A stretch of DNA of 64,000 nucleotides. Origin: Halomonas chromatireducens. GTDB taxonomy: Bacteria; Pseudomonadota; Gammaproteobacteria; Pseudomonadales; Halomonadaceae. The notes under the pieces are model-generated. The model was not told the DNA's origin. It saw only the letters and a program-made list of their open reading frames with translations, and ran no database searches. The position numbers and the translations under genes were made by a program. Positions 58,630 through 63,263 of this stretch are shown here, piece by piece. The first letter of the stretch is position 1. Every line of letters begins with the position of its first letter. Where the stretch lies: contig NZ_CP014226.1 of NCBI RefSeq assembly GCF_001545155.1, positions 890,145-954,144 of the forward strand, written 5' to 3'.

Positions 58630-58666
58630 TCACCACCAGCTAGTCACCACCACCAAGGACCCGGGC

Positions 58667-60163
58667 ATGATGACTCTCGAACGTTTCCGCGAGCTGGCGG
58701 CTGCCGGCTACAACCGCATTCCGGTAACCCGCGAGGTGCTGGCCGATCTCGACACGCCGCTCTCCACCTACCTGAAGCTGGCCGACGAGCCCTGGACCTT
58801 CCTGCTGGAGTCCGTGCAGGGTGGTGAGAAGTGGGGCCGCTACTCCATCATCGGGCTGCCCTGCCAGGAGCGAATCGAGGTTCGCGGATTTACCGTCAGC
58901 CATATCATCAACGGCGAGCAGCAGGGCATGGCCGAGGTGGAGGACCCGCTCGACTGGATCGAGCAGTTTCATGCCGGCTTCAAGGTGCCTCGGCTGGACG
59001 ATCAGCCCCGCTTCGATGGTGGCCTGGTGGGCTACTTCGGCTACGACACCATCCGCTATATCGAACCGCGGCTGCGTGGGCCCCATGTGGCTGCCAAGGC
59101 CGATCCGCTGGGTGTCCCTGACATCCTGCTGATGGTCTGTGATGATCTGGTGGTGTTCGACAATCTCTCGGGCCGGCTGACGCTCTGGACCCATGCCGAC
59201 CCTGCGGCGTCGGACGCCTATGAGGCGGCGGTGGAGCGGTTGCAGCGGCTTGAGGTGCGCCTGCGCAGTGCCACGCTCAACACCATCAGCCCCGGCACTG
59301 GCCGCAGCGCGGTGGAGGAGGGGCACTTCACTTCCGGCTTCACCGAGGCGGGTTTCAAGGCAGCGGTGGAGACGATCAAGGAGTATGTGCTGGCCGGTGA
59401 CGTCATGCAGTGCGTGCCGTCCCAGCGCATGTCGATTCCCTACCAGGCGTCGCCGCTTGACCTCTACCGTGCCCTGCGAAGCCTCAACCCTTCACCCTAC
59501 ATGTTCTTTTTCAACCTCGATGACCACCACGTGGTGGGCTCCTCTCCGGAGATCCTCACTCGCCTGGAGGATGGAGAGGTGACGGTACGTCCGATTGCCG
59601 GCACCCGGGTTCGGGGCAGGACCGAAGAGGAGGACCGGGCGCTTGAGGCCGATTTGCTGGGTGACCCCAAGGAGGTCGCCGAGCACCTGATGCTCATCGA
59701 CCTGGGGCGCAATGACGTAGGGCGCATCAGCGAGACCGGCTCGGTGGTGGTGACCGACCAGATGGCGGTGGAGCGCTACTCCCACGTGATGCACATCGTC
59801 TCCAATGTCACTGGGCGGCTGAAGCCGGGCCTGACGGCCATGGACGTGCTGCGTGCCACCTTCCCGGCGGGCACGCTTTCCGGCGCGCCTAAGATCCGCG
59901 CCATGGAGATCATCGACGAGCTGGAGCCGGTCAAGCGAGGCATCTACTCGGGAGCAGTAGGCTATCTCTCCTGGCATGGCAACATGGACACCGCGATTGC
60001 GATCCGCACGGCGGTGATCAAGGACGGCGAATTGCATGTACAGGCCGGGGCTGGGGTCGTCGCGGACTCGGTGCCCGAGATGGAGTGGCAGGAAACACTC
60101 AACAAGGGTCGGGCGATCTTCCGCGCCGTGGCCATGGCCGAGAAGGGGCTGGATAACCTGTGA
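58667..60163 (+). CDS. trpE: Anthranilate synthase component I TrpE
   Basis: TrpE turns chorismate and ammonia into anthranilate with TrpG. The 498-residue protein keeps the tryptophan feedback element LLES(x)10S (residues 46-60), so the enzyme should be inhibited by Trp. The chorismate-binding domain has [65 protein letters not shown] and [18 protein letters not shown]. Start ATG 58667 has AAGGA upstream. The 37-base gap to gph is too short for an attenuator. trpG lies 1.46 kb away beyond an inverted gene. Confidence 0.97.
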
Positions 60164-60263: not shown

Positions 60264-61259
60264 TTACGCTTCCGAATCCGACTTTTCGTCGTCCTTCTCT
60301 TCGTCCTCCTCATCGCGACTCTCATGGTCTTCTTCTTTGTCGTCCGCGATCTCCTCGTCGCCGAGCAGTGCAGTGCGGATCAGTGAGGCGTTGTGCTTCA
60401 TGAGCGAAACGTAGTTGGCTGCCTCTCCATCCGGTTCACTCAGTGAGTCGACGTAGAGCGGGCCGGACACGGCAAGGCCGGTATCGGAAGCGATACTGCT
60501 GACGTATCGATCGGAAATGGTGCTTTCCCAGAACAGTGAGGCAGGTTGCGCCTCGTTGACCAGATCGATGATTCGCATCATCTGCTGGGGGGAGCCTTCG
60601 GTCTCGGCATTGGTGCCCCAGATACCGTCATGACGGAACCCATAGGCATCGGCAAAGTAGACGAAGGCGGCCTCGCTGGTTATCAGTAGACGCTGCTCTT
60701 CGGGAATGTCGGCGAGGATTTTCGTAATTTCCTTATGCAGTGCAGCTAGAATATCGCGCGCCGTTTCGGCGCGGGCATGGAAATTGTCGGCGGCGTCGGG
60801 GTGCAGCTCGGCCAGCGTCTCGGCAATGACTTGTACATAGGCTGCTGCCGCACGTGGATCCATCCACAGGTGGGGGTCGGGTTCGCCGCTGTAGTCGCCG
60901 GTGACGATGGGCAGGGTGGGGTACTCCGACGCTTCCGCCAGTGGGACAAGAGGGGCCTGGTTGCCTACGGTAGCATGCACCTGGCGCATCCACTGTTCCA
61001 ACTGGTAGCCGTTGTAGAAAACCAGCTTGGCGTCTTCCAGGGCGATGAAGTTATTGGGGGTCAGCTCCCACTCGTGGACTTCGGCTCCGGGCGGGGTGAG
61101 CGTCACCAGGCGAATGTCATCGCCCCCGACCTGGGCTACAAGATCGCCGAGGATCGAGAAGGTGGCTACCACCTTGGGGGATGCTACTGCCTGGCTGGTG
61201 CCTGCCATGGCAGCCAGGGGGAGAGCCAGCCAGAGCAGGGCATGGCGGGATGGGCGCAT
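60264..61259 (-). CDS. Metal ABC transporter substrate-binding protein, manganese/iron-type, with acidic tail
   Basis: The 331-residue periplasmic cluster A-I binding protein has a signal peptide (cleavage near AVA|SP, residue 27). The four ligands of PsaA/TroA-type proteins are placed as His62 (EVHEWELTPNN), His130 (DPHLWMD), Glu196 (TSEAAFVYF) and Asp271 (YVDSLS). Spacings 130-196-271 equal those of PsaA (139-205-280). The Glu and Asp ligands favour Mn(II) or Fe over the His-rich site of ZnuA. Residues 301-331 are a highly acidic tail. AAGGAG precedes ATG 61259. No ATPase or permease gene is adjacent. Confidence 0.88.
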   Translation of the reverse strand: MRPSRHALLWLALPLAAMAGTSQAVASPKVVATFSILGDLVAQVGGDDIRLVTLTPPGAEVHEWELTPNNFIALEDAKLVFYNGYQLEQWMRQVHATVGNQAPLVPLAEASEYPTLPIVTGDYSGEPDPHLWMDPRAAAAYVQVIAETLAELHPDAADNFHARAETARDILAALHKEITKILADIPEEQRLLITSEAAFVYFADAYGFRHDGIWGTNAETEGSPQQMMRIIDLVNEAQPASLFWESTISDRYVSSIASDTGLAVSGPLYVDSLSEPDGEAANYVSLMKHNASLIRTALLGDEEIADDKEEDHESRDEEDEEKDDEKSDSEA

Positions 61260-61379
61260 CGTAAATCTCCTTTTTGCGGCAGCGCATGGACTCGATAATA
61301 GAGACTGCGGACTGGGCTGGCTAGCCGCGCCGTGTAAACAGGCGGTCGTTGTGGCGGGGCGCGGGCGTGATTCGGTGGA

Positions 61380-61409
61380 TTGACAGCCAGCCCGGCACAA
61401 CGGCACTAT
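61380..61409 (+). promoter_or_regulatory. Candidate promoter of the trp leader
   Basis: TTGACA (61380-61385) matches the -35 consensus exactly; CACTAT (61404-61409), 18 bases on, is a weak -10. Transcription from it would begin at about the leader ATG at 61416, giving a nearly leaderless message, so either this is not the promoter or the leader peptide starts further upstream in frame (TTG 61380 or another codon after 61370). Confidence 0.3.
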
Positions 61410-61415
61410 TGCGGT

Positions 61416-61466
61416 ATGACATCGCCAGATTACATTCATTCTAGCCGGACGTGGTGGCGCTCCTGA
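61416..61466 (+). CDS. trpL: trp operon leader peptide (TrpL-type) with tandem Trp codons
   Basis: A 16-codon frame, MTSPDYIHSSRTWWRS, ends in TGA at 61464-61466. It carries two adjacent Trp codons (TGG TGG, 61452-61457) near its end. The C-terminal WWRS recalls WWRTS of E. coli TrpL. Directly downstream are overlapping hairpins that end in a terminator, 102 bases before trpG. It is not a functional protein: ribosome stalling at the Trp codons is the signal. Weak point: no clear Shine-Dalgarno before the ATG, and an in-frame extension back to 61371 is open. Confidence 0.8.
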   Translation: MTSPDYIHSSRTWWRS

Positions 61467-61524
61467 AGCGGGGCGGCATACCTGTGTCTTGAATGACCAT
61501 GCCGCCGTCCGGGCGGCATTTTTG
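61458..61524 (+). promoter_or_regulatory. Ribosome-mediated transcription attenuator of trpGD
   Basis: Three mutually exclusive stems are visible. 1:2 is CGCTCC (61458-61463) with GGGGCG (61470-61475), overlapping the leader stop. 2:3, the antiterminator, is GGCGGCAT (61472-61479) with ATGCCGCC (61499-61506). 3:4, the terminator, is ATGCCGCC (61499-61506) with an identical GGCGGCAT (61512-61519) followed by T. Segments 2 and 4 are the same octamer, so they compete for segment 3. A ribosome stalled at the Trp codons would mask segment 1, free 2 to pair with 3 and let transcription reach trpG. Confidence 0.82.
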
Positions 61525-61625
61525 TACCTGGTGGCTCTGCACGGCTGGCATGACCGACGCATTCGATCTGGGTAACCTCTGCCTGGCCACTGGTCAGCTG
61601 CAATAGAACAGGACTCTATACCGCC

Positions 61626-62210
61626 ATGTCCGTGCTGATGATCGACAACTACGACAGCTTCACTTTCAATGTGGTGCAGTATCTGGGTGAACTGGGGGCC
61701 GACGTGGTCACCCATCGCAACGATGCCATCACCCTGGAAGAGATCGAGGCGCTTGCACCCAGCCACCTGGTCATTTCCCCCGGACCCTGCACGCCCAACG
61801 AGGCAGGCATTTCCATGGCGGCAATTCGCCATTTTGCCGGTCGCCTGCCGATTCTCGGTATCTGCCTGGGCCATCAGGCGATCGGCCAGGTCTATGGCGG
61901 CGAGGTCGTGCGGGCACCCCAGGTGATGCACGGCAAGACCTCCCGGATCCATCACCATGGCCAGGGTGTCTTCGAAGGGCTGGATGATCCGCTGGAGGTG
62001 ACCCGCTATCACTCCCTAGTGGTGGCGGCCGACAGCCTGCCCGAGTGTATCGAGGTAACCGCCTGGACCGACGAGGACGACGTGACGCCGGGTTTGATCA
62101 TGGGCCTGCGTCATCGCCAACTGGACATCGAAGGGGTGCAGTTCCACCCTGAGTCGATCCTTACCCGCCAGGGGCATGAGCTGCTGGCCAACTTCCTGAA
62201 GCGTCGCTGA
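61626..62210 (+). CDS. trpG: Anthranilate synthase component II (glutamine amidotransferase) TrpG
   Basis: The 194-residue class I glutaminase supplies ammonia to TrpE. The catalytic Cys is in [11 protein letters not shown], with His and Glu in [10 protein letters not shown]; the oxyanion strand is [11 protein letters not shown]. It may also serve PabB in folate synthesis, as in other amphibolic TrpG/PabA proteins. It lies 159 bases after the Trp-codon leader, so its transcription is probably attenuated. trpD follows 33 bases downstream. Confidence 0.97.
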
Positions 62211-62243: not shown

Positions 62244-63263
62244 ATGCAGATGCGAGAGGCCATTGGCGCGGTGATGCGCCGCGAGAACCTGAGCTTCGAC
62301 GAGACTCACTCGGTGATGCAGCAGATCATGACCGGCGAGGCTACCGATGCCCAGATAGGCGGCCTGCTGGTTGGTTTGGCCATGAAAGGTGAGACCGCCG
62401 AAGAGATCGGCGCGGCGGCCCAGGTCATGCGTGAGCTCATGAAGCGGGTCAGGGTCTCGGCCGAGAACGTTGTCGATATCGTCGGTACCGGCGGGGATGG
62501 CGCCAACCTGTTCAATGTGTCGACCGCCGCCAGTTTCGTGGCTGCCGCCGGTGGCGCCCATGTGGCCAAGCACGGCAATCGCAGCGTATCGTCCTCTTCC
62601 GGCAGCGCCGACCTCTTCGACGTGGCGGGTATCCACCTGGATCTGAAGCCGGACCAGGTAGGGCGCTGTATCGAACAGGTGGGCGTCGGTTTCATGTTTG
62701 CCCCCAACCATCATCCGGCCATGCGCTTTGCTGTCGGGCCGCGCCGGGAAATGGGCGTGCGCACCCTGTTCAATATCCTGGGGCCCCTCACCAACCCCGC
62801 CGGCGCTCCCAATCAGCTGCTGGGTGTCTACTCACCAGAGCTGGTTCCACTGATGGCCGAGGTACTGCAGTATCTCGGCAGCCGCCATGTCATGGTGGTA
62901 CACGCCGAGGATGGGCTGGACGAGATCTCGCTGGCCGCACCGACCCAGGTGGCAGAGCTGAAGGATGGCGTGATCCGCCGCTACACGATCACCCCCGAGG
63001 AGCTGGGTATCGAGCGTCATGACATGACGTCGCTCAAGGTGGTCAGCGCCGAGGACAGCCTGCGCCTGGTCCGCGAGGCTCTGGTGGGTGAGGGGCTGGC
63101 GGCGGACATCGTCGCACTCAATGCCGGCGCTGCGCTCTACTGCGCGGATATTGCCGACACGCTGAAAGAGGGCGTGATGATGGCCCAGGATGCCCAGGCC
63201 TCCAAATTACCATTGGAGAAAATGAAGGAACTGGCCGATTTCACCCGTGTTCTGCTTCCCTGA
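62244..63263 (+). CDS. trpD: Anthranilate phosphoribosyltransferase TrpD
   Basis: TrpD joins anthranilate to PRPP. The 339-residue protein has VDIVGTGGDGANLFNVSTAASFVAAAGG (the PRPP-binding GTGGD), KHGNRSVSSSSGSADL, and NHHPAMRFAVGPRREMGVRTLFNILGPLTNPA. GGAG precedes the ATG. In Pseudomonas-type genomes trpC follows directly; here the next gene is a PPTase on the other strand, so trpC lies elsewhere. Confidence 0.97.
   Translation: MQMREAIGAVMRRENLSFDETHSVMQQIMTGEATDAQIGGLLVGLAMKGETAEEIGAAAQVMRELMKRVRVSAENVVDIVGTGGDGANLFNVSTAASFVAAAGGAHVAKHGNRSVSSSSGSADLFDVAGIHLDLKPDQVGRCIEQVGVGFMFAPNHHPAMRFAVGPRREMGVRTLFNILGPLTNPAGAPNQLLGVYSPELVPLMAEVLQYLGSRHVMVVHAEDGLDEISLAAPTQVAELKDGVIRRYTITPEELGIERHDMTSLKVVSAEDSLRLVREALVGEGLAADIVALNAGAALYCADIADTLKEGVMMAQDAQASKLPLEKMKELADFTRVLLP

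Follow-up and report, generated by a model that had tools for sequence, protein, structure and literature searches.

A probable tryptophan attenuator in front of trpG of Halomonas chromatireducens and phage-borne cassettes of the same kind in related halomonads

The trpG gene of Halomonas chromatireducens is preceded by a promoter, a short reading frame with tandem Trp codons, three mutually exclusive RNA pairings, and an intrinsic terminator, which we read with high confidence, from sequence, geometry, and conservation, as a ribosome-mediated Trp transcription attenuator of trpGD. The original prediction of such an attenuator in the stretch of 64,000 nucleotides analyzed here (the window) is supported by conserved Trp codons, stems, and terminator and by the geometry of the leader. 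We regard the feature as very probably a true Trp attenuator that works in the ordinary way, a probable leaderless start and the position before trpG being its variant features. What makes it interesting is its coupling to gene arrangement, together with phages that appear to carry the switch with them.

Leader elements and neighboring genes

The genome of the window (G000) is a single 3.97-Mb contig. An rpe-like gene (recognized by eye) is followed by gph (HAD family) and then by trpE, an opposite-strand znuA-like gene, trpG, trpD, and a phosphopantetheinyl transferase gene, which is again on the opposite strand. With the TrpG of the window as query, one match was obtained in its own genome at E 1e-40, trpG itself. 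All elements of the trpG attenuator were found in the sequence exactly where they had been predicted (Table 1).

Table 1 Features of the trpG leader and neighboring genes; positions are those of the window
Feature	Position	Strand	Remarks
trpE (named by eye)	58667..60163	+	37 nt past gph; without own leader here
znuA-like gene between trpE and trpG	60264..61259	-	PF01297, 257.7 bits; start codon by eye
-35 box TTGACA	61380..61385	+	Read from sequence; genus-wide regex match
-10 box CACTAT	61404..61409	+	Weak, 3/6 match to TATAAT; same hexamer in 39/43 leaders
Leader ORF MTSPDYIHSSRTWWRS, 16 codons	61416..61466	+	ATG 6 nt past -10
1:2 pairing spanning stop codon (anti-antiterminator)	61450..61482	+	-15.1 kcal/mol
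TGGTGG, tandem Trp codons (codons 13 and 14)	61452..61457	+	
Leader ORF stop TGA	61464-61466	+	
Region 2, GGCGGCAT, competitor of region 4	61472..61479	+	
Region 3, ATGCCGCC, partner common to regions 2 and 4	61499..61506	+	
Region 4, second GGCGGCAT copy	61512-61519	+	With region 3, intrinsic terminator (terminator scan)
T-run (U-tract) of terminator	61519-61523	+	
TGGGTAA, single heptamer copy	61569..61575	+	Possible scar, weak
trpG, glutaminase subunit of anthranilate synthase, controlled gene	61626..62210	+	PF00117 match
trpD (named by eye)	62244..63263	+	Next gene after trpG, same strand

Region 2 starts 17 nt past codon 13, 14 nt past codon 14, and 5 nt past the stop codon. By these coordinates, and with the usual size of a ribosome footprint, the placement of the Trp codons would let a stalled ribosome spare region 2 and a ribosome at the stop codon cover it. 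Covariance model R1, built from leaders of the genus (see below), matches the window exactly at the leader with 91.7 bits, the window itself being one of the 40 sequences behind the model. No Rfam family rises above its cut-off anywhere in the window; RF00513 (Trp_leader) scores 18.6 bits versus a cut-off of 41 (E 0.31), at the right place and on the right strand.

The two strands of the window hold a single instance of a short ORF with WW combined with a terminator within 110 nt of it and a competing copy of the terminator 3' arm; 60 first-order Markov sequences of 64 kb, likewise searched on both strands, hold none. Without the competing arm, WW ORF and terminator were combined three times in those 60 sequences.

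Promoter and initiation

TTGACA with a -10 hexamer at 16–18 nt is present in 43 of the 44 genus leaders; the remaining one, G063, is truncated by the end of its contig. The regular expression admitted alternative -10 hexamers chosen by eye, by which the four leaders other than those with CACTAT were added. In every leader with a matched promoter (43 of 43), the ATG lies 5–7 nt past the -10 box. Transcription usually begins a few bases downstream of the -10 box, and the conserved spacing between promoter and ATG suggests that the leader ORF is leaderless, with its ATG at or beside the transcription start. The initiation region had been described as odd, without a clear Shine-Dalgarno sequence and with a candidate promoter whose start would fall on the ATG: a clear Shine-Dalgarno sequence before the leader ORF was not found in the window, and a start near the ATG is backed by the conserved 5–7 nt. 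A promoter scan of the window did not list the leader promoter, because its -10 box matches the consensus at three of six positions only.

The mechanism that we infer from the sequence, its geometry, and its conservation, as regards start site, translation, stalling, and Trp response, is as follows. RNA polymerase would start at or beside the A of the leader ATG, and a ribosome would begin on the leaderless ORF. With charged tRNA-Trp plentiful, the ribosome would get to the stop codon and its footprint would hide region 2; with region 2 covered, region 3 would pair with region 4 and transcription would end at the U-tract. With Trp scarce, the ribosome would stall at codon 13 or 14 and leave region 2 free, which would then pair with region 3 first and prevent the terminator.

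Competing pairings

Computed singly, the hairpins are of nearly equal stability (1:2, -15.1; 2:3, -16.2; 3:4, -15.2 kcal/mol). When the RNA extends to region 3 and a ribosome occupies the Trp codons, seven of eight 2:3 pairs are computed at 0.99 or more; with the ribosome absent, 2:3 (about 0.88) prevails over 1:2, which departs from the simplest textbook scheme. A ribosome that covers region 2 leaves the 3:4 pairing. In the full leader, 3:4 wins both with a stalled ribosome and with none, so the switch must be kinetic, decided during RNA synthesis; the trpG leader is in this respect like known attenuators, in which the decision has to fall during transcription.

Overall folding stability was dropped as evidence (z -1.46; 14 of 200 shuffles equally good). 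Since the whole leader is not clearly more stable than its shuffles, the evidence lies in arrangement and conservation. Alignment A1 comprises 40 of 43 extracted leaders; G043, G044, and G055 (long inserts) are outside it, as is G063, whose contig contains no promoter. Across the 38 distinct rows of A1, the 1:2 pairing is paired in 97.4% of cells, and one pair out of 15, in 1:2, has a single both-sided change (40 of 500 shuffles reach the same). The terminator pairs are invariant across these rows, and the GGCGGC core of region 2 pairs with region 3 in all 38, that is, in 100% of cells versus 25.5–88.5% when slid by one to three columns. The three mutually exclusive pairings, the last of them the intrinsic terminator, are thus present with their bases conserved, with no covariation as proof. 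Covariation was dropped as evidence: for 2:3, every shuffle reaches the observed values, and the genus offers next to none, its paired bases being nearly constant. The need for region 3 to match regions 2 and 4 alike explains the missing covariation and does not replace it as proof. Of what alignment of relatives had been proposed to reveal, conservation of Trp codons and stems was found, but covariation in the stems is almost nil.

Shuffles of the 2:3 pairing genome by genome were weak as evidence, 15 of 63 falling below 0.05; among those 15, L101 and L108 took a segment over the Trp codons and not region 2. L253 was uncounted (terminator outside the regular expression), L127 and L277 are one genome, and seven of 71 matches were left out (L242, which coincides with L448, and six that were second matches or lay on the opposite strand). 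At its foot, the terminator has a C-G pair in place of T-A in Modicisalibacter tunisiensis (L132) and in the prophage of G050.

Distribution in genus, family, and order

At E 1e-40, 86 of 90 genus genomes yielded a TrpG match. No usable match came from G009, G060, G061, G082, and G069 (two pieces), and the regions round trpG and trpE were tabulated for 85 genomes; a znuA-like match lies 5' of trpG in 18 of these 85 rows. By the distance between trpE and trpG, the genus falls into two classes, with G050 outside the count (too little sequence in that table). In the adjacent class (40 genomes, genes 22–100 nt apart), a WW leader or terminator is present in none; in the nonadjacent class (44 genomes, genes at least 260 nt apart or, in G014, G047, and G063, trpE outside the stretch), the regular expression finds a Trp leader with terminator before trpG in all 44. 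The leader ORF contains WW in 38 of these and a single W in six (G007, G015, G021, G022, G025, and G032). A tree of TrpE and TrpG, from a quick search on 78 of the 85 rows (both genes readable and long enough), requires at least six changes for the adjacent class, three of them forced by well-supported branches. The genus is thus a clean natural experiment, with the attenuator where trpG is apart from trpE and none where they are adjacent.

G047 groups on the tree with genomes having adjacent trpE and trpG, yet has the split and a trpG cassette. This cassette is 94.4% like that of another genus (G120), and a receptor and a two-component system were recognized by eye between its trpE and trpG (L065, L122). 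Split and cassette were probably regained by transfer.

At E 1e-6 or better, R1 matches 104 of the 275 family genomes. These belong to 15 of 24 genera, with 42 in the genus of the window (40 of which built R1) and 62 in 14 others. Among 390 genomes of the order, 28 match at E 1e-3, 21 of these outside the family, and matches below 1e-9 are family members exclusively. Among the matches outside the family, the eight loci inspected (L284–L291) resemble plain terminators by eye and were rejected as attenuators. Genus g11 is not among the 104 positive genomes. In two of its genomes (G099, G134), neither leader nor trpE was found within 3.6 kb, so a separate trpG is not always preceded by a leader of this kind.

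The trpE side

A leader ending WRW (TGGCGATGGTGA) precedes trpE in 72 of 79 genus genomes with a readable trpE upstream region; its ORF is mostly of about 25–40 codons (e.g., L039:1158-1257), and TGGCGATGGTGA is mostly accompanied by GCTC one base further on. In G058, the stop of the motif is TAA; G007 has a change in the first Trp codon. The remaining five are the genome of the window, G006, G040, G059, and G071, with a gap between gph and trpE of 29–40 nt, stop codon included, versus 217–361 nt in the other genus genomes where it was measured. In the window, the trpE leader is absent at 58630-58666, and the TGGCGATGGTGA pattern, found at nine places in the genome, does not occur. The lineage of the window has apparently lost the trpE leader and its upstream region by deletion. 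Four of these five genomes are on the tree, where well-supported branches force three changes, and all five genomes have the trpG attenuator.

The statement that trpE is without such a leader consequently stands for the window and fails for the genus, 72 of whose 79 genomes have the WRW leader. Different control of the two anthranilate synthase subunits would be a derived state in the lineage of the window, where transcription of trpE would come from the gph side, free of Trp control, and the enzyme would be subject to Trp through trpGD.

A consistent terminator was not found with the WRW trpE leaders, nor was a convincing structure: in alignment A2 (64 of 73 trpE leaders, G011, G015, G021, G022, G025, G032, G043, G044, and G075 left out), none of six predicted pairs has a both-sided change. 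No Rfam family was found for the trpE leader L039 or the Pseudomonas trpG leader L145. WRW leaders also precede trpE or trpG, if not at every locus, in Pseudomonas, Alcanivorax, Marinobacter, Spongiibacteraceae, Porticoccaceae, and other halomonad genera, and this leader type seems to be the wider one.

Prophages inserted in trpG

The sole R1 match in G103 and one of two in G092 lie before a truncated trpG start that is followed by an integrase gene. In a search of the 275 family genomes, the integrase belongs to a clade of 10 tyrosine integrases (L308–L317; 413–917 bits, the next at 296.9). Nine of these 10 come shortly after a trpG-like start, G141 being the exception: six by exact motif, 171–187 nt before the integrase (G103, G092, G104, G626, G166, G050), and three recognized by eye (G144, G583, G183). 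Judging from these junctions, the clade inserts within the first codons of trpG. Directly 5' of the integrase, a direct pair CTGGGTAA or GTGAGTAA (or near-copies) and an inverted copy were seen by eye; the arm pair recurs before a functional trpG about 35–51 kb on in the seven genomes that have both pairs on one contig (G092, G103, G104, G144, G166, G583, G626). The TGGGTAA heptamer is paired at the ends of these prophages in relatives. Head, portal, terminase, tail, replication, or lysis genes are present in the four elements examined (G050, G092, G103, G104), which are thereby identified as prophages; integrase, truncated and functional trpG ends, and phage structural genes are thus all found in relatives. 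The genome of the window has no integrase of the clade (best match 276.8 bits).

Insertion separates trpE from trpG: in G104 the truncated start comes after trpE (by eye), and in the congener G157 trpG follows trpE with a gap of 108 nt. The znuA gene was considered as phage cargo and dropped, because a znuA-like stretch also precedes the truncated trpG in G626 (by eye).

The prophage end that rejoins trpG is readable in eight cases, of which two carry a Trp attenuator. The end of the G050 element consists of a TTGACA promoter, leader MTLFRPTQRIRQWWPF (WW), GC-rich hairpin, short T-run, arm pair, and trpG start, while the host's own leader (ending GPMAWWRS) stays before the truncated trpG; this assembly involves three contigs, ordered by overlapping ends by eye (see the start of L315 and the end of L497). 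The G092 end has an AlpA-like gene, then a one-Trp leader MTTAPIASIKSWRLH, terminator, and arms. Arms without a Trp attenuator at the trpG end were found in G103, G104, G166, G144, G583, and G626; G583 has a 44-codon WW frame, as in L129, without terminator. A third cassette (MTSISMTIAKQWRLVI) lies before a trpG start and beside an anti-repressor gene on viral contig 2788500074_000003, and an integrase 66% identical to that of G092 is encoded on a different contig with the same genome number. This suggests a third phage cassette, the integrase link being indirect. Over gap-free columns, the two one-Trp phage cassettes are 86–89% identical to the one-Trp cassettes of G021, G022, and G025 and 78–79% to the resident G092 leader; the cassette comparison excludes G015, G035, and G102 (too short) and L132.

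Of 29 viral stretches with the terminator pattern, only L448 and L458 have a Trp leader, arm heptamer, and trpG start; the same two alone were found among six with the region-2 pattern, and none of 19 with the WW pattern passed the filter for terminator, arm, or trpG start. L458 (viral contig, minus strand) has an in-frame TAG at about codon 17 of trpG, either an error or a broken gene.

In G030, which has no integrase of the clade (best 224.5 bits), identity of the leader is 93.5% with the resident leader of G050 and 62.0% with the phage leader, but the arm region is closer to the phage end (84.7%) than to the resident one (75.6%). The corresponding arm regions of G035 and G058 are 94.4% resident and 71% phage. 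The simplest account of the G030 mosaic, as far as its sequence goes, would be recombination between two cassettes with loss of the phage. Arm pairs (at most two mismatches) are present in eight of 44 genus cassettes (G048 doubtful) versus none of 44 controls of the same length. An arm-site scar in the window was rejected, the pair test being negative and the heptamer present as a single copy.

Discussion

That the leader is nothing but the intrinsic terminator of an upstream transcript, with a WW frame beside it by chance, is hardly credible. Terminator-like sites are common (two listed, both the same hairpin, versus 0.9 expected from shuffles), but the next gene upstream points away, promoter, Trp codons, and terminator are conserved across the genus, and the combination is absent from all 60 control sequences, so that this explanation is already contradicted. 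Control by a leader that binds a protein or tRNA (TRAP, T-box, TrpR) in place of a ribosome is equally improbable: no supporting point was found for it, no Rfam cut-off is reached in the window, the Trp-codon ORF is conserved, and the TrpR family was not found in the genome of the window by a search that finds TrpR in E. coli as a control. Attenuation might be only part of the function if the terminated leader RNA also acted in trans, as a small RNA or small mRNA. The leader of Sinorhizobium meliloti, with an RNA start at its ATG, acts in trans according to the accessible text of PMC7298713; among relatives of the window, however, the peptide that precedes the Trp codons is highly variable, which argues against a conserved peptide function, and we regard a role in trans as unlikely.

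The remaining question is one of origin. The window cassette (promoter, leader, and terminator) could be the leftover end of a former trpG prophage and not an inherited host element: two prophages and a viral contig of relatives have such cassettes at that end, the G030 mosaic fits phage loss, and one TGGGTAA is present at 61569. Yet the arm-site pair was not found in the window, the best full-length match of its cassette among those compared is in the near relative G006 (94.6%), and an element present in 15 genera fits vertical descent equally well; we regard this origin as rather unlikely. With a single arm copy, the window cassette cannot be called phage-derived on present evidence. For the family as a whole, a broader reading appears fairly plausible, in which temperate phages of halomonads use trpG for integration, some of them bringing a complete attenuator at the end that rejoins trpG so that the lysogen keeps Trp control, and repeated integration, cassette recombination, and phage loss exchange host attenuators. 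The cassettes of G050 (WW), G092 (one W), and the viral contig and the mosaic of G030 are seen; these cassettes may work and may shape the attenuators of the family. The copy in the window may be one product of such exchange.

As a ribosome-mediated attenuator, the leader is like the E. coli trp leader in its short ORF with tandem Trp codons near the end, its 1:2, 2:3, and 3:4 pairings, and its terminator with U-tract. E. coli TrpL ends WWRTS, and the leader of the window ends WWRS. Unlike E. coli trpL, it controls trpGD and not trpE, is probably leaderless, and has no clear Shine-Dalgarno sequence; its genome is without a TrpR family match, and its Trp_leader score is below the Rfam cut-off, as given above. 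Attenuation of Pseudomonas putida trpE and trpGDC was reportedly described by Olekhnovich and Gussin in 2001 and is thus already known, as are phage-derived genes between trpE and trpG in P. aeruginosa; the likeness to P. putida lies in an attenuator before trpG as a separate unit. Among 25 loci named Pseudomonas or Halopseudomonas, 23 have an RWRWR leader before trpE or trpG, and a scan found no strong terminator with the leaders at these loci, in which they differ from the halomonad trpG leader with its WW and strong terminator. For P. aeruginosa trpGDC, premature 3' ends beside a possible uORF are reported in the accessible part of PMC8297930. In S. meliloti, the trpL ATG stands at the very 5' end of the attenuated RNA, and trans functions are reported for rnTrpL and its peptide (PMC7298713, available portion); the likeness is the RNA start at the leader ATG, whereas S. 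meliloti belongs to another proteobacterial class and the gene is trpE(G). Among the literature matches listed, with most subscription journals outside coverage, Halomonas is not mentioned in connection with attenuation.

Culturable halomonads would lend themselves to two questions, whether Trp control of anthranilate synthase via TrpG alone suffices and whether a gene interrupted by a phage can receive a functional amino-acid attenuator from it. If true, the phage reading would offer a reason for phage-derived genes at the trpE-trpG junction in both halomonads and P. aeruginosa. In the latter, phage-tail-like genes (the R-pyocin cluster) lie between trpE and trpG, according to the available text of PMC12694933; that cluster is a tail-like bacteriocin, whereas the halomonad elements have an integrase and sit in trpG codons. 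A predicted prophage, WX-3, is described in the accessible portion of PMC12456005 as including trpG. On viral contig 2713896754_000003 (L364:1-271), a short trpG-like start is likewise followed by an integrase, with 46% identity to the G092 enzyme, and insertion in trpG may thus reach beyond the halomonads.
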